The position numbers and the translations under genes are program-made. Shown piece after piece: positions 17,126 to 28,208 of a DNA stretch of 48,429 nucleotides. Origin of the DNA: Bacteroidetes Order II. bacterium (GTDB lineage Bacteria; Bacteroidota; Rhodothermia; Rhodothermales; UBA2364); the NCBI GenBank assembly GCA_016788705.1, contig JAEUSQ010000013.1, forward strand, positions 1 to 48,429. The letters run 5' to 3'. Under the pieces are notes generated by a model that saw nothing but the letters and a program-made list of their open reading frames with translations, ran no database searches and was not told the DNA's origin. Each line of letters starts with the position of its first letter. Position 1 is the first letter of the stretch.

Positions 17126-20026
17126 TTATTCTTTAGGCAGTCTATTGCGCTGTTGACCTGAGGTTGTTGCACCCGTGCCACCTGATGCACAAGGTAGATT
17201 GACTGGGCAAGGCTTTGAGGCTTTGTTACCGTCTTTTTCTGTTGCCCGGTTGAGTGGGCTGGTACTAAACGTGGCGAACCCGTTACAGTTTTTATTCTCC
17301 GTACACGATGTGGTGACGGAGCAATCATTTCCGGCCTCGCACACAAAGGTATAGCCATTGGAACTGGTCACACTCGTACCTCTCGCAGGCTGCGCCACTC
17401 GCTGTCCGTTGAGGGTTCTCGCCGGGGTGGCGCCTGACGTACTACTTGGCGCACGTGCCGGACGGGTGTCACTGGGACCGGAAGGCCAAGCCGGTAAGGT
17501 CCCAGCACCATTGGGCGACCATGCGGGCGCATTCCCCGATTCATCACCGCCCCTGCTCCCCGAACTGGAACTACGCAAGCGAGAAGCCGGAGCTTTCGGC
17601 TTGCGGCGTTTCAACGTTTCGATTTCATTGCGTAATTGTTCCACTCTTTGTTCAAATTCCTGTAGCCTTTGAGCATTATACACCGCTTTTCCACGTACAT
17701 ACAAGTCTTCTTGCTGCCGTAATTGGGACTGTAGCAACGCAAGGCCACTTTGTTTTTGACTAATACGAGCACCATATTGCCAGATTTGCTCGCCATACTC
17801 GGTGTTTGCACGGTTATACTGATTATACAGGTCTTGTGCCTGATAATTTTCCCATTGCAGCTGTTCGCTTTGTTGCTCCAAAAGAGTGCCTAATTGAGAT
17901 AGCCGACCACTCACGTCGCCGGATAGGTTGACGTCTGCTGGGCTTTCAGCGAAACGTGCGCTACTGGTTTCGGGGGTACCGCCATGGGCGCTGGCACTAC
18001 CCGAACTGTTTGGGTAACTTCCTGCGCGTGCGAAAGCATTTCCCCCAATGTAATTATCCTCCTCGGTTGTGAAGGTGCCAGCGTTATTGACTTGTCCACG
18101 CCGGAATGGGACACGATCTATCTCTTCGAGGGTAGTGGCAGTTCCGCTTGAATCGTGAAGGGGATTAGGCTCTATTTGCACCCAAAGTTGTCCACTACGA
18201 CGGTCTCGGAAAAAATTGTGTTCCATCTGGACATTGTAAACCTTTCCCTTATAACGAATCTCCATGTTTTTTCCGTTTACTTCTGCCGTCAATACCGCAC
18301 CTCGAAACTTCGTTTCCGAAAACACAATCCGGCCAATCCCTTCAACGTACCAGAAAAGCAGTCGGTCTCGGAGGCTACTCATCGTGAAAACATTGCGGGT
18401 TACGGATTTTCCGTTCATCATTCTTGGCGAGAAAATGACACCGTGATCGAAACCTGCTACCGTTAAATTAGCCTGTTCCTCTTCTTCAGGCGGCATTTCG
18501 GCCTCCAAGCCAAAGTACCACTGCGGATTAGAGAAACGCTCGAAACTACCCTCCGGACGGTTGTTGCGCCAGTTTTCCGGTTGAATGTACGGGTAACGTG
18601 CCCCATAGAGCGGTTGGCGGTTGGGGTTTGCTAAAATGGCTTGCTGAGAAGTAATCGCAACCTGAACACCATCTATCGAAAGCCGCAACAAGCCTTTGCT
18701 CACACTGCCAACTCTTTGGGCATTCAGAAACGGAACCGTAGAAAACCGAATCAACCCCGTTTGTGGATGCAGGATAATACCAGAACAAAAACCCTTATGG
18801 GAACGATAAGTCTCCTCTACCTCCAAATCTTCGTTGCCATATAGGCTAATCTGCCCGCTTTCAAAAGATAGCTTACAGTCTTCGTTTGTTGCATTCACGT
18901 GACTGGTAACAGGAAGATGCCTTTCTGGCTGGTGGAATTTGGTTCCGGCAAGGGCGATAGTGGTCAAGGTTAAAAAAGCAAAACTCATCAGGCTGCCCAA
19001 TCGGTTGGCACGCCGGATATGATTTTGCGAATGAACCGTTTCTTTCATGGCTTCGAGGCGGGCTTTGAGGCTCATAAACGTATCGGCCATTTGCAAGGCC
19101 GGGCGATGCGCTGGAGCCGCCGAAAGTTGGAACAACAAACGGGCATACGCCTCCGCCGGATAACATCCAATGCTTAGAACCGTGGTGTCACACACTTGTT
19201 CGCGGGTCTGCGCAATCCGGTTGCGAATCAGGTACATTAATGGATGAAACCAGAAAGCCAGATTCAACACCCGTTCTACCCAATTCCATACAAAGTCGTG
19301 TCGGCGAATGTGTACCAATTCATGGAAAATGGCCATTTCTGCCTCCAACGGTTTTTCCAATAAGGAGGCGGGCAGCACAATCATGGGCCTCCGCCACCCA
19401 AAGGTCATAGGGACGGTTTCGGTGGGGATTGTTGCCAACATCACCCGATTCTGGCGAATGCCCAATTGCTGTGATAACGCACTGAGCATGTCCTGAAAAT
19501 CTGGGTGTAACGAGACCTTCAGCCCACGCCGAAAACGCCGGAGTAGCGCGGTTTCGTACACAAATTTTCCCATCTGAAACAGCAACAACATCCCCAGTCC
19601 TAAACTGCCGATGATCCATATCAGAGAGGTGACGTCGGTACGAGGAGGCGTAGCAAACAAGTGGTTGGTAGGCAAACTGGCAGCGGCTTGCGTTTCGGGT
19701 GCTGGTGTGGGTACGGTGGTTGCCTGTGCAGAGGGGGGAACAGGATCAGGTAAAACTGTTTTGGTGTTTGGCGAGTCCGCCAGATTTTCGGTTTTTGTCA
19801 ATCCCTCTACGGGCATCATGACCGGAAAACCAAGTGCACCCATAGAAATTCCTAACGGCAAAGCGACCATCACAGCCCGATAAAGACCCGTTCGTAGAAC
19901 CGGATGCCAATTTTGTTTGACCTCAAGGATACCCCACATCAACAAAGCAATCATGCTCCAGACCAAGAGAACAAGCCCAGCATTTGCCCATGCCTGAAGT
20001 TCGGGAGAAAAAGAAAAAGTTGTCAT
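17126..20026 (-). CDS. M56-family (BlaR1/MecR1-type) membrane metallopeptidase with a long extracytoplasmic tail
   Basis: Zinc peptidase of the BlaR1 type, which in resistance systems cleaves or relieves its partner repressor after an external signal. Membrane helices are at about 14-34, 50-72, 133-152 and 343-361. The catalytic motif HELVH is at 235-239 with a likely third ligand Glu276 (REQVCD). After the last helix come about 600 residues outside the cytoplasm. They consist of a beta-rich part (365-640), a long Gln/Glu-rich coiled coil (about 725-835), and a Pro/Ser/Gly-rich C-terminal segment with several cysteines (CEAGNDC, TSCTENKNC, PCPVNLPC). There is no penicillin-binding sensor domain, so the signal is probably not a beta-lactam. 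It is the last gene of a BlaI, outer-membrane protein, M56 unit. Confidence 0.9.
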   Translation of the reverse strand: MTTFSFSPELQAWANAGLVLLVWSMIALLMWGILEVKQNWHPVLRTGLYRAVMVALPLGISMGALGFPVMMPVEGLTKTENLADSPNTKTVLPDPVPPSAQATTVPTPAPETQAAASLPTNHLFATPPRTDVTSLIWIIGSLGLGMLLLFQMGKFVYETALLRRFRRGLKVSLHPDFQDMLSALSQQLGIRQNRVMLATIPTETVPMTFGWRRPMIVLPASLLEKPLEAEMAIFHELVHIRRHDFVWNWVERVLNLAFWFHPLMYLIRNRIAQTREQVCDTTVLSIGCYPAEAYARLLFQLSAAPAHRPALQMADTFMSLKARLEAMKETVHSQNHIRRANRLGSLMSFAFLTLTTIALAGTKFHQPERHLPVTSHVNATNEDCKLSFESGQISLYGNEDLEVEETYRSHKGFCSGIILHPQTGLIRFSTVPFLNAQRVGSVSKGLLRLSIDGVQVAITSQQAILANPNRQPLYGARYPYIQPENWRNNRPEGSFERFSNPQWYFGLEAEMPPEEEEQANLTVAGFDHGVIFSPRMMNGKSVTRNVFTMSSLRDRLLFWYVEGIGRIVFSETKFRGAVLTAEVNGKNMEIRYKGKVYNVQMEHNFFRDRRSGQLWVQIEPNPLHDSSGTATTLEEIDRVPFRRGQVNNAGTFTTEEDNYIGGNAFARAGSYPNSSGSASAHGGTPETSSARFAESPADVNLSGDVSGRLSQLGTLLEQQSEQLQWENYQAQDLYNQYNRANTEYGEQIWQYGARISQKQSGLALLQSQLRQQEDLYVRGKAVYNAQRLQEFEQRVEQLRNEIETLKRRKPKAPASRLRSSSSGSRGGDESGNAPAWSPNGAGTLPAWPSGPSDTRPARAPSSTSGATPARTLNGQRVAQPARGTSVTSSNGYTFVCEAGNDCSVTTSCTENKNCNGFATFSTSPLNRATEKDGNKASKPCPVNLPCASGGTGATTSGQQRNRLPKE

Positions 20027-20059
20027 GGCTTATTGGGTTAATGCTAACAAAGCAAGGCG

Positions 20060-21340
20060 TTAATAGGAAATGTAAAAACCACCACTTTCATCAAAGCGAG
20101 AGTTGACGATACTATTGGTCAATGCTCCAAAACGGTACGAAAGCCCCATAAACGTCCAATACCGGAAATTTGTTTTTTGTTGCTTAAAGCGCGTCAGGAT
20201 ATCTTCGCTGGAGGGATCGTTTTTGGGCAAGCTGATTTGATCGTTGATGGAAGCAAACGAACCGCCTACACTAAAAGACAAGCCTTTGGTAATGCGCCAT
20301 TCCACATTACCCATCAGCGAGAGTTGCCAAAACTTGGTGTCGTGCAGATAATGTGATCCGGTAAGCGTCAGCGAGGCCGAACCCCAAGGTTGTTGCTGCG
20401 ATAAAATGGCGCTTAATTGGTTTTGGAAAACCGTTTCTTTGGTTTTGTCGAACAACGTGATTTCGTCATAGGTCACAAACTGAACATTCGGATTCCATTG
20501 TAATTTAAAAGCACGGCGAGTGGACTCTTCGTAGGGCATAAAACTGTACTCGAAGCCCGGACTGATGCGAAAATTGCGCAAAACATTGTTGTAGGTGGAG
20601 CCAAAAACCGAGACCGAAAGCCGACCAGAAGTTTGTTTGGCCACTGTTCGGATGCCAGAAGTACTTAGCGACCAATTGTCGTTGATGTTCACCAATGTGG
20701 TATCTCGATTGTTGCTGTTAACGTAGGAGTATTCGTTTCGGTTTTGGTTTAGGTTTAACGAAACGGCGGTTTTCCATTTATTAGACGTTCTTGTGGCACT
20801 AAAACGCCCCCCATAATCAGCTGATTTGTAGCTGCTCTCGGCTTGGATATTGGCATTTGTCCCTAAGCGGAAATTCCACAAATTCCATTTATCCACCACA
20901 GATACTGGTGGCTTATTCTCATCTATTGCTGGTGGCGTGTAGCTGATTTGGAGATTGGCAAAGGCTGGCGTCTTGGAGACAAACGGCATCAAGGCGGCCT
21001 TCAAGTGTTGTACCAACTTCTTCCGAACTTGGTCTTGTGTATCTGTACCAGATGTGCTGAACTTGAGTACTTGTCTTTGGGATTCAAAACGTTTTTGACC
21101 AATTAGCTCTGTCGTATAAGTATCACCACCACTTCCGTTGGTTTCGGTAGTAATAAGCGCATGAATATCCGATATGGTACGATCGGTCACATAATCCACA
21201 AAGCGGATTTCGGTCCGGATAAAGTCACCATCACAAAACATACAATCTAAAAAAACCTGTGGCTGAGGCGGTGGGTTTTGTGCAAAAACAGAGGGGCCAA
21301 GTGGGATAAAAAGCAGTAGAAGGCCAAGGAAATAGCGCAT
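20060..21340 (-). CDS. Outer-membrane beta-barrel protein between BlaI and the M56 peptidase
   Basis: A Sec signal peptide (MRYFLGLLLLFIPLGPSVFA) precedes a distinctive N-terminal domain with CMFCDGDFIRTEIRFVDYV (Cys33, Cys36) and DRTISDIHALITT, a pattern I associate with hypothetical surface proteins of Bacteroidota and relatives. The rest is rich in alternating aromatic and polar strands (for example SLNLNQNRNEYSYV, YWTFMGLSYRFG) and ends in an aromatic residue (FYISY), as outer-membrane barrels do. I cannot name the family. It lies 33 bases before the M56 gene and 100 bases after BlaI, so it is likely under BlaI control and may act with the peptidase in sensing or repairing the envelope. 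Confidence 0.75.
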   Translation of the reverse strand: MRYFLGLLLLFIPLGPSVFAQNPPPQPQVFLDCMFCDGDFIRTEIRFVDYVTDRTISDIHALITTETNGSGGDTYTTELIGQKRFESQRQVLKFSTSGTDTQDQVRKKLVQHLKAALMPFVSKTPAFANLQISYTPPAIDENKPPVSVVDKWNLWNFRLGTNANIQAESSYKSADYGGRFSATRTSNKWKTAVSLNLNQNRNEYSYVNSNNRDTTLVNINDNWSLSTSGIRTVAKQTSGRLSVSVFGSTYNNVLRNFRISPGFEYSFMPYEESTRRAFKLQWNPNVQFVTYDEITLFDKTKETVFQNQLSAILSQQQPWGSASLTLTGSHYLHDTKFWQLSLMGNVEWRITKGLSFSVGGSFASINDQISLPKNDPSSEDILTRFKQQKTNFRYWTFMGLSYRFGALTNSIVNSRFDESGGFYISY

Positions 21341-21440
21341 AGTGTTGTGGTTTTTTGGGGGGTAAAAAGAGCATGAACAGGTGAACGCTGAGAAGACGAG
21401 TTAAGGTGTAAAAGTGTGACAAAGGTGTGCAAAAAATGGT

Positions 21441-21818
21441 TCAAGGCTTTAGTTGTTCAATAATCGCAAGCAGTTCCTCGCGCTGTGCTTCGCTCATATT
21501 GCCTTGTTCTACCAACGTTTGTACCAAGGCAATAGGCGAGCCACTAAAGACTTTTTCTACTACTTCTTGCAAGACCTTCCCTTGCATTTCGGCAGCTGGC
21601 TCGGCAGACCAATAAACATAGGCATTGCCCTCTTGCTGGAATTTTAGGTAGCCTTTATCGGCTAATTTTTTCATGACGGACATAACGGTCGTATAGGCCA
21701 CAGGGCGGTATTTCATGACAGCCTTATGAATATCAGCAACGGTACAACGTCCGGCCTCCCATACGTGCCGGAGCAATTCCATTTCGGTTTCGCCCAGTCC
21801 GGTATAAGTTCGTTTCAT
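21441..21818 (-). CDS. blaI: BlaI/MecI-family transcriptional repressor
   Basis: Winged-helix repressor of 125 residues: LGETEMELLRHVWEAGRCTVADIHKAV is helix-turn-helix region one and AYTTVMSVMKKLADKGYL is the recognition helix, followed by a C-terminal dimerisation helix pair. I start it at the ATG at 21818 (MKRTYTGLG). A longer frame to 21932 would translate the operator repeats and is unlikely. In BlaR/BlaI systems the repressor is inactivated through the M56 peptidase, which here is encoded two genes downstream. The operator array just upstream suggests autoregulation of the whole unit. Confidence 0.93.
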   Translation of the reverse strand: MKRTYTGLGETEMELLRHVWEAGRCTVADIHKAVMKYRPVAYTTVMSVMKKLADKGYLKFQQEGNAYVYWSAEPAAEMQGKVLQEVVEKVFSGSPIALVQTLVEQGNMSEAQREELLAIIEQLKP

Positions 21819-21830
21819 ATCTTTTTTTAT

Positions 21831-21896
21831 TACGATGATAGAAGTACGATGATAGAAGTACGATGATCGTCGTAATAAATATACTACGATCATCGT
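21831..21896. promoter_or_regulatory. Candidate BlaI operator array of repeated ACGATGAT boxes
   Basis: TACGATGATAGAAG occurs twice in exact tandem (21831-21844 and 21845-21858). It is followed by the near-palindrome TACGATGATCGTCGTA (21859-21874) and, 10 bases further, by ACGATCATCGT (21886-21896), a palindrome containing the inverted box. The array starts 13 bases upstream of the blaI start codon. Dimeric BlaI proteins bind short dyads such as these; here three direct boxes and one inverted box may hold several dimers. The exact tandem copy may be a recent duplication. Confidence 0.6.
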
Positions 21897-22012
21897 TTCG
21901 ATGTCAAGAGGCAAGAAGTTTTTATTTGTCACTAACGGATAACGGGGTCTTCAGCCAAGCAGTAACGATACAAACCATCCCTAATAACAAAATTTGACAA
22001 GTTGCAATAAAT

Positions 22013-22040: not shown

Positions 22041-22709
22041 ATGCTAAGTCAAGCCACTCAGGATTACCTGAAACTCATTTACCGCCTTGAGACAGAAGGC
22101 AGACGCCCCTCTACCAACGACCTAGCAAAGGGGATGGACGTTGCGGCTGCATCCGTGACCAATATGCTTAAACGCCTTGCAGACCTAAAATTGGTGACCT
22201 ATACCTCGTATCGTGGGGTTTCCCTCACCGACTCTGGCCGATTGATTGCATTAGAAATGTTGCGCCATCATCGGTTGATCGAAACTTATCTGGCACAGGC
22301 ACTGGGGTACTCGTTAGATCAACTACACGACGAGGCCGAGCATCTGGAGCACCACATTTCCGAACAATTTGAAGAGCGCATAGATGCACTATTGGGATAT
22401 CCTCGGTACGATCCTCATGGAGACCCTATACCTTCCAAAGAGGGCCTGATTCCGCCGAGATGTAACAATGCCCTTTCCGAAGCTGCCTTAGAAGTGGATT
22501 GGGTGGTTCGTCGGATTTCAGATCACAGCAAAGAACTCCTTCGATATTTGATGCAGTGCCATTTGGTTCCGGAAACCAAGGTAAGGATTATGGACAAGGC
22601 GCCTTTTGAGGGTCCATTAACCTTGCGCATTGGGGAAAACGAGGTTGTGGTGGGGTATAAGGCTGCTTGCTATGTCTTTGTAGAACAAGTGGATAGGGAA
22701 TTTTTATGA
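22041..22709 (+). CDS. DtxR/MntR-family metal-dependent transcriptional repressor
   Basis: N-terminal wHTH (residues 5-65: PSTNDLAKGMDVAAASVTNM, then YTSYRGVSLT), a dimerisation and metal-binding domain (70-120), and a C-terminal SH3/FeoA-like domain (about 150-222). The metal residues resemble manganese MntR rather than iron DtxR: Asp8, His77, Glu100, Glu103 and His104, with Glu100 where iron regulators have Cys. Position 11 is Lys where Bacillus MntR has Glu, so selectivity is not certain. Its stop overlaps the start of the binding-protein gene by four bases, so it is the first gene of the metal import locus. A palindrome just upstream is its probable operator. Confidence 0.92.
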   Translation: MLSQATQDYLKLIYRLETEGRRPSTNDLAKGMDVAAASVTNMLKRLADLKLVTYTSYRGVSLTDSGRLIALEMLRHHRLIETYLAQALGYSLDQLHDEAEHLEHHISEQFEERIDALLGYPRYDPHGDPIPSKEGLIPPRCNNALSEAALEVDWVVRRISDHSKELLRYLMQCHLVPETKVRIMDKAPFEGPLTLRIGENEVVVGYKAACYVFVEQVDREFL

Positions 22710-23617
22710 ACAAGTTATTGTATTTTGTTTTGGGGGTAATTTTTGTTGGATGCACCAGGCCGCAAGCCGATGATCAGGAAAAATTCCGTGTGGTGACCAC
22801 CACGGGCATGATCGCCGACGCAGCAAAGGAAATTGGACGGGAGCATGTCTCGGTGAAGGCGTTGATGGGGCCGGGCGTAGATCCGCATTTATACAAGGCC
22901 ACCCAAGGTGATCTGCTTAGCCTGATGAACGCAGATTTGGTGTTGTACAATGGCCTTCATCTGGAAGGAAAAATGGGCGAGGTTTTAGAGAAATTGGCCC
23001 GCCGAAAACCAGTGATGGCTTTAGGACAAATGATTCCATCAGAAAAACTTCTTCATGTATCTGACGCAGAAGAGGCAATCTATGACCCCCATATTTGGTT
23101 TGATGTATCGTTATGGCAAAGGGTAGCCGAAGCGGTTGGACAGAAGTTGGCAGAGATGCTCCCGGATAAACAACTGGAAATCCGTACCAATACCACAACC
23201 TATCTAGCGCACCTCCGGGAATTGGAGGACCATATGCGTAGCCGAGTGGCCGAGATTCCCCAAGAGCATCGCATTTTGCTCACCGCGCACGATGCTTTTG
23301 GCTATTTTGGCCGCGCTTATGGTTTTCGGGTGGTAGGACTTCAGGGCATCAGTACAGCAGGGGAATATGGCCTGGGAGACATTCGGCGAGTGGTGCAAAT
23401 CATTACCCAAAACCGGATAAAAGCAGTTTTTGTGGAGTCGAGCATCTCGCCCCGTGCGATAGAAGCCGTCGTGGAAGGAGCAAAACAACGAGGACAAGCA
23501 GTACACATTGGCGGGCACTTATTTTCGGATGCGATGGGGCAACCTGGAACTTCCGAGAGTACCTACGTGGGGATGATGCGTTACAACATAAATACCATCG
23601 TACAGGCACTGAAATAG
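22706..23617 (+). CDS. TroA/ZnuA-like metal ABC transporter substrate-binding lipoprotein
   Basis: Periplasmic metal-binding protein for Mn2+, Zn2+ or Fe2+ import. The signal ends in a lipobox (IFVGC, Cys16). The cluster A-I metal ligands are His61 (DPHLY), His129 (DPHIWF), His195 (TAHDAFGYF) and Asp275 (LFSDAMG), the set seen in TroA. No His-rich loop of the ZnuA type is present, which mildly favours manganese or broad specificity. It overlaps the repressor gene by four bases; the ATPase gene follows after a 259-base gap. Confidence 0.93.
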   Translation: MNKLLYFVLGVIFVGCTRPQADDQEKFRVVTTTGMIADAAKEIGREHVSVKALMGPGVDPHLYKATQGDLLSLMNADLVLYNGLHLEGKMGEVLEKLARRKPVMALGQMIPSEKLLHVSDAEEAIYDPHIWFDVSLWQRVAEAVGQKLAEMLPDKQLEIRTNTTTYLAHLRELEDHMRSRVAEIPQEHRILLTAHDAFGYFGRAYGFRVVGLQGISTAGEYGLGDIRRVVQIITQNRIKAVFVESSISPRAIEAVVEGAKQRGQAVHIGGHLFSDAMGQPGTSESTYVGMMRYNINTIVQALK

Positions 23618-23876: not shown

Positions 23877-24695
23877 ATGAAATCATCCGATATCCGACGA
23901 TCCGAGGGACAAATCATTGCCTTAGAAGTGCATGATCTGACGGTGGCCTACCGAGATAAACCCGTAATTTGGGGGGTTGATTTTGCCTTGCCCGAACGCC
24001 AACTTGCCGCCATTGTAGGGCCTAATGGTGCGGGGAAATCTACGTTGCTCAAAGCCATCATGGGGCTAATTACCGCAGCATCCGGACAGGTTCGGGTTTA
24101 TGACCAGCCCTTGGAGGCCGTGCGTAAAGAAGTGGCTTATGTACCTCAGCGGGAGTCGGTGGACTGGGACTTTCCGACCAATGTACTGGATGTTGTGATG
24201 ATGGGTCGCTATGGCCAAATGGGCCTGTTCCGACGTCCGGGGAAGGCAGACCGAGAAGCTGCTTTGGGCGCATTAGAAAAAGTGGGTATGGCGGAGTTTG
24301 CTAAACGGCAAATCTCACAACTTTCGGGAGGGCAGCAACAACGCATTTTTTTGGCCCGCGCTTTGGCCCAAGAAGCCCGCTTATACTTGATGGACGAGCC
24401 TTTTGCAGGGGTAGATGCGGCAACCGAAGCGGCCATTCTGGAACTCTTGCAATCCCTGCGTGCCGAAGGCCGAACGGTCTTGGTGGTCCATCATGACCTG
24501 CAAACAGTAGCTGATTATTTTGACTATGTGCTGATGATCAACATGCGGCTTATTGCTAATGGACCAATGGAGGACACCTTTACCACCGAAAACCTCCAGA
24601 AAACCTATGGTGGACGTCTCAACCTGCTTTCGGAAGTAGCGCATCTGGCTACCCGCCATAGCCACATTATCCACGCCGAAAAAAAACCGGAATAA
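23877..24695 (+). CDS. Manganese/zinc/iron ABC transporter ATP-binding protein
   Basis: ATPase of a TroB/MntB/ZnuC-type importer. Walker A is GPNGAGKS at 48-55, the Q-loop is in YVPQRESVDWDFP (the WDFP stretch is typical of this metal-transport group), the signature is LSGGQQQR, Walker B is LYLMDEPFAGVD, and the switch His is in VVHHDL. A basic N-terminal leader of 12 residues precedes the domain. The stop codon overlaps the start of the permease gene (TAATG), so translation is coupled. Confidence 0.95.
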   Translation: MKSSDIRRSEGQIIALEVHDLTVAYRDKPVIWGVDFALPERQLAAIVGPNGAGKSTLLKAIMGLITAASGQVRVYDQPLEAVRKEVAYVPQRESVDWDFPTNVLDVVMMGRYGQMGLFRRPGKADREAALGALEKVGMAEFAKRQISQLSGGQQQRIFLARALAQEARLYLMDEPFAGVDAATEAAILELLQSLRAEGRTVLVVHHDLQTVADYFDYVLMINMRLIANGPMEDTFTTENLQKTYGGRLNLLSEVAHLATRHSHIIHAEKKPE

Positions 24696-26002
24696 TGAAC
24701 GAACTACTTGATTTTATGCTGCTTCGCGAAGCCAATACCCGTTATGTGGTGGCTGGAACGATGTTGTTGGGGCTGACAGCGGGCATGTTGGGCAGTTTCA
24801 CCGTATTGCGCAGGCGGGCATTACTGGGAGATGCTATTGCACATGCGGTTCTGCCGGGCGTGTGTCTTGCTTTTATGTTCACGGGTACCAAAGATCCATT
24901 TATACTATTGGTAGGTGCTTTACTATCGGGTGGATTGGCCACTTTTTTCATGGATTTGGTGCAACGAAATACCAAACTTCCGGCAGATGCGGTATTGGCG
25001 TTGGTCTTGTCTGTATTTTTTGGGATCGGGATATTTTTGCTTACCATGATCCAACAATCTGGTATGGCTGCCCAAACAGGGTTGGATAAGTTTCTCTTTG
25101 GACAGGCGGCTTCCCTGTTGGGACGTGATGTGATCTTGTTTGGGCTAATTGGAGCAAGCGTCTTATTCACGTTATTCATTTTCTTTAACCCCTTAAAATT
25201 AATAAGCTTCGACCCCGCTTTTGCGTCTTCGGTGGGCTTTCATGTTTTTCGCTACGATGCCTTGCTGACCGCTTTGTTGGTGGCTGCCATCACCGCAGGT
25301 ATTCAGGCGGTTGGCGTGGTACTTATGGCGGCTCTTTTGGTAACGCCCGCCGTCGCTGCTCGGTACTGGACGGAGGACCTCCGGGTGATGATGTGGCTGG
25401 CGGGCGCCTTCGGGGCCTTGAGTGGTTGGCTGGGGGCATTGGCCTCCTATTATATTCCGGGCTTGCCCACCGGGCCATGTGTTGTGGTGGCCGCCACCTT
25501 CATTTTTGGAACTTCTATGTTTTTTGCACCCGAACGCGGCATGATCGTCAGATGGCTGCGACATAAGCAAACAAAGCGGCGTATTATGCAGGAAAATGTC
25601 TTAAAAACACTCTATCAGTTACATGAAGAAATTCCAGAAAAACAACTATTTACGCTTTATGATATTTCAGAAAAACGGTTCTTTGTTCCCCAAGAACTGG
25701 CCTTATGTCTGAGGCACTTGGCAAAAGAAGGATATGTGAAACAAAATAAAAAGGGCTATTTTTTTCAAAAAAAAGGCTGGGACGAAGCCATGCGGATTAC
25801 GCGACTACACCGACTTTGGGAGCTGTATCTTGCCGAGCACTTGGCCTTTCCTGATGACCATGTACATGCCGATGCCGAGGCGATGGAACACATGATTACC
25901 CCTGAACTGGAAGAAAAACTGCGCCAAACCCTAAATCACCCGTTACATGATCCACATGCCTCTCCCATTCCCTACAACAATCCAACGGGTACAATTGCGT
26001 AA
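24695..26002 (+). CDS. Metal ABC transporter permease fused to a C-terminal DtxR-type regulatory domain
   Basis: Residues 1-285 are an ABC-3 family permease with about eight helices (LRRRALLGDAIAHAVLPG and FDPAFASSVGF are family signatures). After the last helix the chain continues for 140 residues. First comes a winged-helix-like part (ENVLKTLYQLHEE, then ELALCLRHLAKEGYV, then KKGYFFQKKG), then the DtxR/MntR metal-binding dimerisation helices (TRLHRLWELYLAEHL, then EAMEHM). The second keeps the E-x2-E-H ligand pattern of the MntR-like protein at 22041. Fusions of this kind are known, for example chlamydial YtgCR, whose repressor part is released by cleavage. The fused domain may sense imported metal at the transporter or regulate transcription. 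Confidence 0.92.
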   Translation: MNELLDFMLLREANTRYVVAGTMLLGLTAGMLGSFTVLRRRALLGDAIAHAVLPGVCLAFMFTGTKDPFILLVGALLSGGLATFFMDLVQRNTKLPADAVLALVLSVFFGIGIFLLTMIQQSGMAAQTGLDKFLFGQAASLLGRDVILFGLIGASVLFTLFIFFNPLKLISFDPAFASSVGFHVFRYDALLTALLVAAITAGIQAVGVVLMAALLVTPAVAARYWTEDLRVMMWLAGAFGALSGWLGALASYYIPGLPTGPCVVVAATFIFGTSMFFAPERGMIVRWLRHKQTKRRIMQENVLKTLYQLHEEIPEKQLFTLYDISEKRFFVPQELALCLRHLAKEGYVKQNKKGYFFQKKGWDEAMRITRLHRLWELYLAEHLAFPDDHVHADAEAMEHMITPELEEKLRQTLNHPLHDPHASPIPYNNPTGTIA

Positions 26003-26066: not shown

Positions 26067-28208
26067 ATGAAGCGAATTTTCACTCTTGTTTTGCTTACCA
26101 GTCTGCACCTGTTGCAGGCACAGACTCCTCAGCCCCAGATAACCGCCCATTTTACAGAAGAAAAAATTACGGTAGATGGTCAACTTAATGAAGCCATCTG
26201 GCAATCTATTGCCCCAGAAACGGATTTCCGCCAAAGACAACCTTCCGAAGGACAACCCGGAACCGAAAAATCGGAACTCCGCATTGCTTATGACCGAGAC
26301 AACCTCTACTTTGGTTTGGTTTTTTACGACAAAGAACCCCACCTTATCCGTGCAAACGTCTTTGACCGAGGCGGACGTATAGACAAGGACGACAACATTC
26401 AAATTGGTTTGGATACCTATTTTGATGGCCGAAACGGCTATATCTTCGAGATGAACCCGCTGGGCACACAGGACGACGCCCTAATCTCTGATGAAAAAAC
26501 ATATAACTGGGATTGGAACGGCGTGTATTATAGCGAAGGCCGCGTCACCGATTTTGGCTGGGTTTTGGAAGTAAAAATCCCATTTAAAACCATCCGTTTT
26601 AGCAAAGACGACGAGTTGGTAATGGGGGTGGCCGTTCAGCGGGTCATTAACCGCAAAAACGAACGCCTCACATTTCCATTTATCCCGCTTAATTATAAAT
26701 CGGAATTACTGTCTGTATCGCAATATGCCAAATTAGTGGGCATTAAAAATGTACACCGTGGACGAAATTTACAGATTAAGCCCTACGCCATTGCAGGCGC
26801 TCAACGCAATCTGCAAACGAACAATACGTTTAAAAACGAGATCGTCCGCAATACAGGTGTAGATATGAAGTACGGCCTATCGTCTAACCTAACGCTAGAC
26901 CTGACATACAATACGGATTTTGCACAAGTTGAAGCCGACGCCGCCCAAATCAACCTTACCCGCTTTAATCTCTTTTTACCCGAAAAGCGGGAGTTCTTTT
27001 TAGAACGCAATGGTTTGTTTGAATTTGGCAATACGGGCGAAACGGAGACGTTTTTTAGTCGGAACATCGGCATTACCAATGATATTCTGGCAGGAGCAAG
27101 GATAACCGGACAACAAGGCAAACTCTCGGTAGGTCTCCTGAATATCCAGACAAAGGACAATGACACCCAAAAAGGCCAAAATTATGGCGTAATGCGCCTC
27201 AGAGCGGAAGTGATGCCCCAACTTAGTATGGGGACCATCTTTACCAATGTACAGAACAAAGAGACCTATAACCGCGTGGCCGGAGTGGATGCCAGTTACC
27301 GGTTCTGGGGTGCGAGTGAGCTTAGCGGCTGGTTCAATGCCGTGTGGGATTCTCCGAAAAACCAAAATACCACCGCCGGAAACCTGTCTTTGCTCTTTCT
27401 GAAAGACCTATATAATGCCAAGTTGCAATACACAAATGTGGAGGCAGGGTATAATCCCGGATTAGGCTTTGTGGAACGAGACAACGTGCGGCGTTATGCT
27501 GCGAATGCCTCTTATAATCCCTACATCAGCCGGACAGGCCAGAAAAAAGTCCGACGACTTTCCTTTACTGGATCGGGCGAGTACCTCACGAACCAAACAG
27601 GTATGTTAGAATCCTCGGAGGTTTTTATTAATGGAACAGTCTTGTTTGTCAAACGCGACCGACTTGGCCTGAAAGCGACATGGGCGTTCGAAAACCTGAT
27701 TACACCTTTTGCCATACGTCCCGATGTGGTGATCCCTGCCGGAGAATATCACTTCAACTTTGCGGCATTTACGGCTTCGAGCGACCAGAGCCGGCCATTT
27801 TATATCACTGCTACGGCACAAACAGGTGGTTTTTATCATGGAACCCGCACCCTCCTCCAAAACCTGATTGGCTATCGCTTCTCGAAACACCTAAAGGCAG
27901 AGCAAACCATTAACTACAACATCATAGATCTACCCGTAACCAATGGCCGTTTTGATGCCACGACCTATGGCCTCACGGTGCAGGCTGCTACCAGCCGAAA
28001 ATTATTCGCCAATGCCCTGATTCAGTATGATAACTTCTCGCACCGATTCCGTTCAAACATCCGCATTAATTGGATTCATCGGCCCGGTAGCGACCTGTTT
28101 TTGGTGTTTAATACGGGTTATTTCTTCCAAGACCGCCTACAATTCCGAGAGGATGACCTCTTTAACCGCTTGGGAGTGGCCAAACTGACCTATTTATTCC
28201 AGTTATAA
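26067..28208 (+). CDS. CBM9-like/DUF5916 outer-membrane barrel protein inside the metal import operon
   Basis: A Sec signal (MKRIFTLVLLTSLHLLQAQ) is followed by a carbohydrate-binding family 9-like domain (about 30-195: ITVDGQLNEAIWQ, LRIAYDRDNLYFGLVFYD, DDNIQIGLDTYFDGRNGYIFEMNP). Next comes a DUF5916-type region (about 225-713) with the signature FNLFLPEKREFFLERNGLF. The C-terminal half consists of amphipathic strands ending in LTYLFQL, so it should form an outer-membrane barrel. Members usually stand alone or near TonB systems. Here the gene is inserted between the two permease genes, 64 bases after the first and 14 before the second. A role in metal passage across the outer membrane is an inference from position. 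Confidence 0.88.
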   Translation: MKRIFTLVLLTSLHLLQAQTPQPQITAHFTEEKITVDGQLNEAIWQSIAPETDFRQRQPSEGQPGTEKSELRIAYDRDNLYFGLVFYDKEPHLIRANVFDRGGRIDKDDNIQIGLDTYFDGRNGYIFEMNPLGTQDDALISDEKTYNWDWNGVYYSEGRVTDFGWVLEVKIPFKTIRFSKDDELVMGVAVQRVINRKNERLTFPFIPLNYKSELLSVSQYAKLVGIKNVHRGRNLQIKPYAIAGAQRNLQTNNTFKNEIVRNTGVDMKYGLSSNLTLDLTYNTDFAQVEADAAQINLTRFNLFLPEKREFFLERNGLFEFGNTGETETFFSRNIGITNDILAGARITGQQGKLSVGLLNIQTKDNDTQKGQNYGVMRLRAEVMPQLSMGTIFTNVQNKETYNRVAGVDASYRFWGASELSGWFNAVWDSPKNQNTTAGNLSLLFLKDLYNAKLQYTNVEAGYNPGLGFVERDNVRRYAANASYNPYISRTGQKKVRRLSFTGSGEYLTNQTGMLESSEVFINGTVLFVKRDRLGLKATWAFENLITPFAIRPDVVIPAGEYHFNFAAFTASSDQSRPFYITATAQTGGFYHGTRTLLQNLIGYRFSKHLKAEQTINYNIIDLPVTNGRFDATTYGLTVQAATSRKLFANALIQYDNFSHRFRSNIRINWIHRPGSDLFLVFNTGYFFQDRLQFREDDLFNRLGVAKLTYLFQL

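Follow-up and report, generated by a model that had tools for sequence, protein, structure and literature searches.

A BlaR1-BlaI-like cassette of Bacteroidota with an outer-membrane barrel as its apparent output

The DNA analysed here, a stretch of 48 429 nucleotides referred to as the window, holds three genes on the minus strand that lie behind one promoter in the transcription order BlaI, barrel, M56: a BlaI/MecI/CopY-type winged-helix repressor of 125 aa (21441..21818), an outer-membrane barrel protein of 426 aa (20060..21340) and an M56 (BlaR1-like) membrane metalloprotease of 966 aa (17126..20026). Coordinates of cassette features are for the minus strand unless noted. The genes are separated by 100 bp (BlaI/barrel) and 33 bp (barrel/M56), and as the downstream neighbour is convergent and the upstream neighbour divergent, they constitute the whole unit. 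A first-pass annotation made from the sequence had placed a BlaI, an outer-membrane barrel and an M56 peptidase at this locus, and all three are present at those positions. The cassette recurs in two congeners; one of them, the metagenome-assembled Bacteroidetes bacterium UBA2364, is assigned by NCBI to unclassified Bacteroidota Order II. Elsewhere in the window, an ABC-3 metal permease carries, as a fusion, the metal-binding domain of an iron-dependent (MntR-type) repressor (24695-26002, plus strand). It adjoins a complete MntR-like repressor (22041-22709) and a protein of the ZnuA-like binding type (22706-23617).

The repressor matches the Pfam family Penicillinase_R (PF03965) over its full length (E = 4.4e-26, model positions 1-115 of 115, spanning the winged helix and the dimer domain), and its structure matches are MecI and BlaI. 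Known BlaI proteins are cut at an Asn-Phe bond, with a near-invariant Phe at P1'. The window protein has Thr-Leu at this site, and P1' is Leu in 45 of the 52 BlaI proteins of the order. With Leu instead of Phe at P1', the sequence alone does not establish that this BlaI is cleaved, and with Thr-Leu here and Leu as the rule in the order, the specificity of the protease must differ somewhat.

In the M56 protein (Pfam PF05569; BlaR1 structures 8exp and 8exs), the Peptidase_M56 family covers residues 114-326 only (E = 2.7e-31), and Pfam and NCBIfam searches of the remainder returned no penicillin-binding or other convincing known domain, with no penicillin-binding sensor at E<=1. The NCBIfam blaR1 equivalog has a cut-off of 400; the protein scores 76.9 with it, and the match is confined to residues 133-358. 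When aligned with BlaR1 (8exp), the HELVH zinc-binding motif (residues 235-239; 19310..19324), Asp244, Glu276-x3-Asp280 and Tyr294 coincide with the zinc-protease residues, whose motifs have been described (PMC9834060), and judged by this alignment the M56 catalytic residues are intact. BlaR1 itself cuts its repressor directly (PMC9834060). Four hydrophobic segments lie at residues 10-38, 51-73, 130-157 and 343-362; motif alignment and domain searches agree with the first-pass description of a BlaR1 core, with HELVH and four helices (here hydrophobic segments), that lacks a penicillin-binding domain. In one other genome, BlaI (residues 9-123) and M56 (261-483) are fused in a single 752-residue frame (L088:5080-7335, G036:C108), so that the repressor is tethered to the protease expected to cut it. 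At a further locus of the window genome (L072, G000:C38:93190-94850; same gene in G001:C87 and G002:C3:110937), the M56 frame stops at about 300 residues in all three species; in the window genome the next frame begins 12 bp on with a hydrophobic stretch near its start, which would fit either a split receptor or a genus-conserved frameshift.

The last hydrophobic segment of the window M56 protein is followed by 604 residues (363-966; 17129..18940), a predicted extracytoplasmic tail and probable sensor. It contains a probable coiled coil (residues about 716-810; 17597..17881), read from the sequence with only weak matches to coiled-coil models and 73% and 49% identical to the congeners, and ends in a Cys-rich region with six Cys (residues 896-946; 17189..17341). 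These six and two further Cys, at 384 and 414, are all conserved in the three species, in keeping with the roughly 600 extra residues, coiled coil and Cys-rich end first noticed. By sequence comparison the tail is recognisable only in the same gene of the two congeners, with 48-72% identity over its middle part. The concern, raised with the initial proposal, that the tail might be poorly conserved therefore applies in part: it is conserved within the genus, but not beyond it.

The tails of other barrel-linked M56 proteins, namely those of a second cassette of the genus (cassette B), of genome G029 and of the group G030/G074/G088, are unrelated to the window tail and to each other. The G030/G074/G088 tails carry carbohydrate-binding-like repeats with a weak GH115_C match. 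Tails of this family are also present in G008 and G047, genomes in which no full barrel was found. Since barrel-linked tails are mutually unrelated and one of their families lives in genomes without a full barrel, comparison of the sequences makes a general sensing contact between barrel and tail unlikely, and we rejected the tail as a conserved barrel-binding domain in any general sense. For the carbohydrate-binding-like tails of the relatives, as opposed to the window protein, envelope or extracellular polysaccharide is a reasonable first guess at the signal. Across the order, M56 tails differ in their modules, which include carbohydrate-binding-like repeats (weak GH115_C), HEAT repeats, a toastrack DUF4097 domain and an S41 protease domain (loci L070, L105, L116, L158, L159; L095, L102, L103; L109).

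The barrel protein has a signal peptide, read from the sequence, and matches no Pfam or NCBIfam family, DUF481 included, although DUF481 (PF04338) is touched by 2 of 24 homologues (best E = 4e-4). AlphaFold2, run on a 24-sequence alignment, predicts a 12-stranded beta-barrel over residues 150-426 (20063..20893; mean pLDDT 79.7), which VIA-align aligns best with CymA (Z 15.6, rmsd 4.3, 219 residues) and also with OmpG, TamA and other outer-membrane barrels. The signal peptide together with the closed antiparallel barrel of the model argues for an outer-membrane beta-barrel. Ahead of it, residues 22-140 (20921..21277) are modelled as a periplasmic alpha/beta domain (pLDDT 90.9), with best alignments to TolB domain 1, a Neisseria protein (3bf2), LptE, PelC and PqiC. 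At Z 6.7-7.9, a range that common arrangements also reach, this likeness between model and known structures is suggestive only, and we rejected a firm domain assignment; Foldseek gave no match to the domain below E 0.001. The first-pass annotation had described this domain as containing a CxxC. Both Cys (C33 and C36) are indeed present and invariant across 55 homologues. Their spacing is not fixed, however, ranging from 2 to 6 residues; a structural disulfide accounts for this better than a redox CxxC, and the latter is unlikely. Plasmid records contained no relative of the barrel.

The cassette promoter reads TTGACA-18-TATATT (21878-21907), with a -35-like box at 21902..21907 and a -10-like box at 21878..21883, and is overlapped and then followed by palindromes. 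Directly downstream of the -10 box lies a predicted palindromic operator, TACGACGATCATCGTA (21859..21874), kept in the three species. A second copy (21882..21897, not assigned to a strand), imperfect here and perfect in G002, sits between the two boxes, and two more half-sites ATCATCGTA follow at 21845-21853 and 21831-21839 (within 21831..21853). In all three congeneric genomes exact TACGACGATCATCGTA is found at the cassette promoter only; the window genome has one further site with two mismatches, no more than the control. The predicted arrangement is that of a BlaI/MecI/CopY regulator, with a palindromic operator over its own promoter.

Other cassettes appear to carry motifs of their own. 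At the promoter of cassette B, GTGTTAAAAAATTAACAC occurs twice, and the three genomes have no copy at any other place. In G074, GTGAAATTATTTCTTCAC precedes BlaI and each of barrels 1 and 2 and is confined to these sites, and G088 has an exact copy at its barrel promoter; the syntenic BlaI-M56 pair of G047, which has no barrel, lacks GTGAAATTATTTCTTCAC. The barrel is the sole non-regulatory gene common to the operator-marked regulons. Because the operators are private to their cassettes, stand before barrels in relatives and are lost with the barrel, the barrel looks, in the most direct reading of these sites, like the regulated output of the switch. The other two BlaI-M56 pairs of the window genome (L071 and L072) also have promoter palindromes upstream of BlaI, each with its own sequence, and it seems that each BlaI-M56 pair has its own DNA code.

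Of 114 genomes from the order, 75 contain the barrel by profile search; its distribution across the phylum is thinner. Positions of M56 and BlaI were determined in this same set of genomes. Adjacency of BlaI and M56 is near universal in the order, the two genes usually overlapping. Barrels are linked to such pairs in three layouts: BlaI-barrel-M56 in the window and the two congeners; BlaI-M56-barrel in the second cassette of the same three genomes and in G030, with G029 more doubtful; and barrel divergent from BlaI-M56 in G074 (two barrels) and G088. Altogether 11 linked barrels from about five lineages were seen, against about 0.27 expected by chance (an approximate rate obtained by simple arithmetic), and the link is not due to chance. 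We downgraded G029 as independent support, as its barrel, where no operator was found, lies 529 bp from M56, and in G103 the orthologous BlaI-M56 pair stands without a barrel. About 80 of the 90 barrel homologues in the order are not near BlaI or M56, so the barrel does not need BlaI/M56 control, and none of those checked outside the order was linked (72 barrel-positive genomes). The barrel as a family-wide M56 partner was consequently rejected (11 of about 90 linked in the order). The conserved triplets envisaged in the first-pass annotation thus exist as recurrent links within the order, but most barrels stand apart; its grouping of the three genes as one regulatory cassette holds up, and the barrel accompanies BlaI/M56 at further loci, where the arrangement differs and the sensor pairs are unrelated.

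The history of these links differs between barrel and sensor. Placed on a 59-barrel tree, linkage requires 5 changes, and the barrels of the two genus cassettes (A, that of the window, and B) are sisters (SH-aLRT 99). The M56 proteins of the same two cassettes belong to separate deep regions of the M56 tree, where a single clade is rejected (p-AU 0.0085), and their BlaI proteins are 23% identical. We therefore rejected a common origin of the two sensor pairs; as the M56 tree has long branches, we draw this claim from the AU test and from the BlaI identity, and do not rely on exact positions in the tree. Sister barrels with unrelated M56 and BlaI proteins mean that related barrels have come under two unrelated sensor-repressor pairs in one genus. 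Our best reading is a switch of the BlaR1-BlaI type whose sensor domains can be exchanged and which has repeatedly been recruited to govern a single envelope barrel.

For the window, the three neighbouring genes would form a self-contained on/off switch in which the M56 protease probably responds to something in the cell envelope and destroys the repressor. We think it likely, with some reserve, that this is a one-operon switch of the BlaR1-BlaI type whose output is the pore-like outer-membrane barrel and not a gene for antibiotic resistance. At rest, a BlaI dimer would occupy the palindromes straddling the -10 box and keep blaI, barrel and M56 off, while the M56 protein would hold its zinc protease at the cytoplasmic face and extend its long sensor tail into the periplasm. 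Once an envelope signal reaches the tail, the protease would cut BlaI and the operon would be derepressed; the barrel, with its TolB/LptE-like N-terminal domain in the periplasm, would be made and inserted in the outer membrane, and newly made BlaI and M56 would reset the circuit. Tail orientation, BlaI cleavage and derepression are inferred by analogy with BlaR1, and the intact catalytic residues and operator layout lend support to a BlaR1-BlaI-like circuit.

The first-pass annotation had suggested that the signal could run the other way, with envelope state sensed through the barrel and relayed to BlaI; in such a model the barrel, or its N-terminal domain, would contact the M56 tail. The barrel gene does sit between repressor and protease with short gaps, the coiled coil can be inferred to be long enough to reach far across the periplasm, and tail and barrel are both kept in the three congeners. 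The operators nevertheless mark the barrel as product, the tails differ from cassette to cassette, and the tail family shared by G030, G074 and G088 turns up in G008 and G047 without a full barrel; the proposed direction of signalling is probably wrong, and we give this mechanism a low probability. Slightly better placed, though still unlikely, is a circuit in which the barrel, besides being what the switch regulates, dampens its own sensor; it might, for instance, ease the envelope condition or, in this genus only, bind the M56 tail. Co-transcription of the barrel with its sensor and the genus-specific conservation of a tail with coiled coil and Cys-rich end would both suit such a circuit, and the operator data are compatible with a regulated gene that feeds back on its sensor, but cassette B pairs the sister barrel with an unrelated, shorter tail.

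It is very improbable, in our estimate, that an ordinary outer-membrane protein has merely come to lie beside BlaI-M56 by drift, with no functional meaning. Most barrel homologues are unlinked, and G029, with its distance, its barrel without an operator and the barrel-less G103 pair, looks like just such a case. Chance neighbours would not be expected, however, to show several independent associations at operon or divergent-promoter distance, nor private operators that disappear along with the barrel.

Returning to the switch with the barrel as output, a broader proposal, which we put forward tentatively and hold slightly more doubtful than not, is that the BlaI-M56 pairs of the order serve generally as a module for transmembrane signalling in one step, into which different periplasmic sensors can be plugged (carbohydrate-binding-like repeats, HEAT repeats, toastrack, S41 protease, or a coiled-coil/Cys-rich tail), and that they have been captured repeatedly to control outer-membrane barrels. 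This would be a proteolytic envelope-response route that dispenses with sigma/anti-sigma pairs and two-component kinases. DUF5916/CBM9-type proteins adjoin BlaI-M56 pairs in six loci (L089, L094, L100, L110, L112 and L114; Pfam confirms DUF5916 for L094 and L112) and may be a second envelope family under BlaI-M56 control. A DUF5916 protein is also encoded in the window (26067-28208).

To our knowledge, BlaR1-BlaI has been described almost exclusively as a switch for antibiotic resistance. Here this machinery lacks a drug-binding domain and appears to operate private outer-membrane protein circuits, with sensors and repressors swapped around the same barrel. If true, this offers a way to learn what most BlaR1-like proteins of environmental bacteria respond to, and it singles out one operator, one target and one protease that can be put to the test. 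The open-access literature contained no paper joining M56/BlaI with Bacteroidota regulation or outer-membrane targets, which, given that scope, is weak evidence of novelty.

Among systems already described, we know of no outer-membrane barrel client of Mycobacterium tuberculosis BlaI (Rv1846c), and the envelope there is a different one. Two reports give that repressor a role wider than beta-lactamase control, so that BlaI can serve other regulons (PMC8265638, PMC12565901). The window barrel shares the outer-membrane barrel fold, in its model, with DUF481 barrels and with the solved CymA, OmpG, TamA and PelB, and differs from them by its TolB/LptE/PelC-like N-terminal domain with two invariant Cys. 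The closest parallel is BlaR1-BlaI and MecR1-MecI of Staphylococcus and Bacillus, which likewise combine a BlaI-family repressor with an M56 gluzincin bearing HExxH, ExxxD and the conserved Asp and Tyr, four transmembrane helices (four hydrophobic segments here, putatively in the same N-out/C-out topology), a C-terminal extracytoplasmic domain (predicted here) and an autoregulated promoter with palindromic operators (predicted here from sequence). In contrast to BlaR1 and MecR1, the window M56 protein has an unrelated 600-residue tail in place of their class D-like penicillin-binding sensor domain, the cassette contains no beta-lactamase or PBP and close operator matches occur at its promoter only, and its BlaI, unlike BlaI and MecI, has Leu rather than Phe at P1'. 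Whereas BlaR1-BlaI guards against antibiotics, the regulated gene of the window cassette, going by the operators, would be an outer-membrane barrel placed between repressor and protease.
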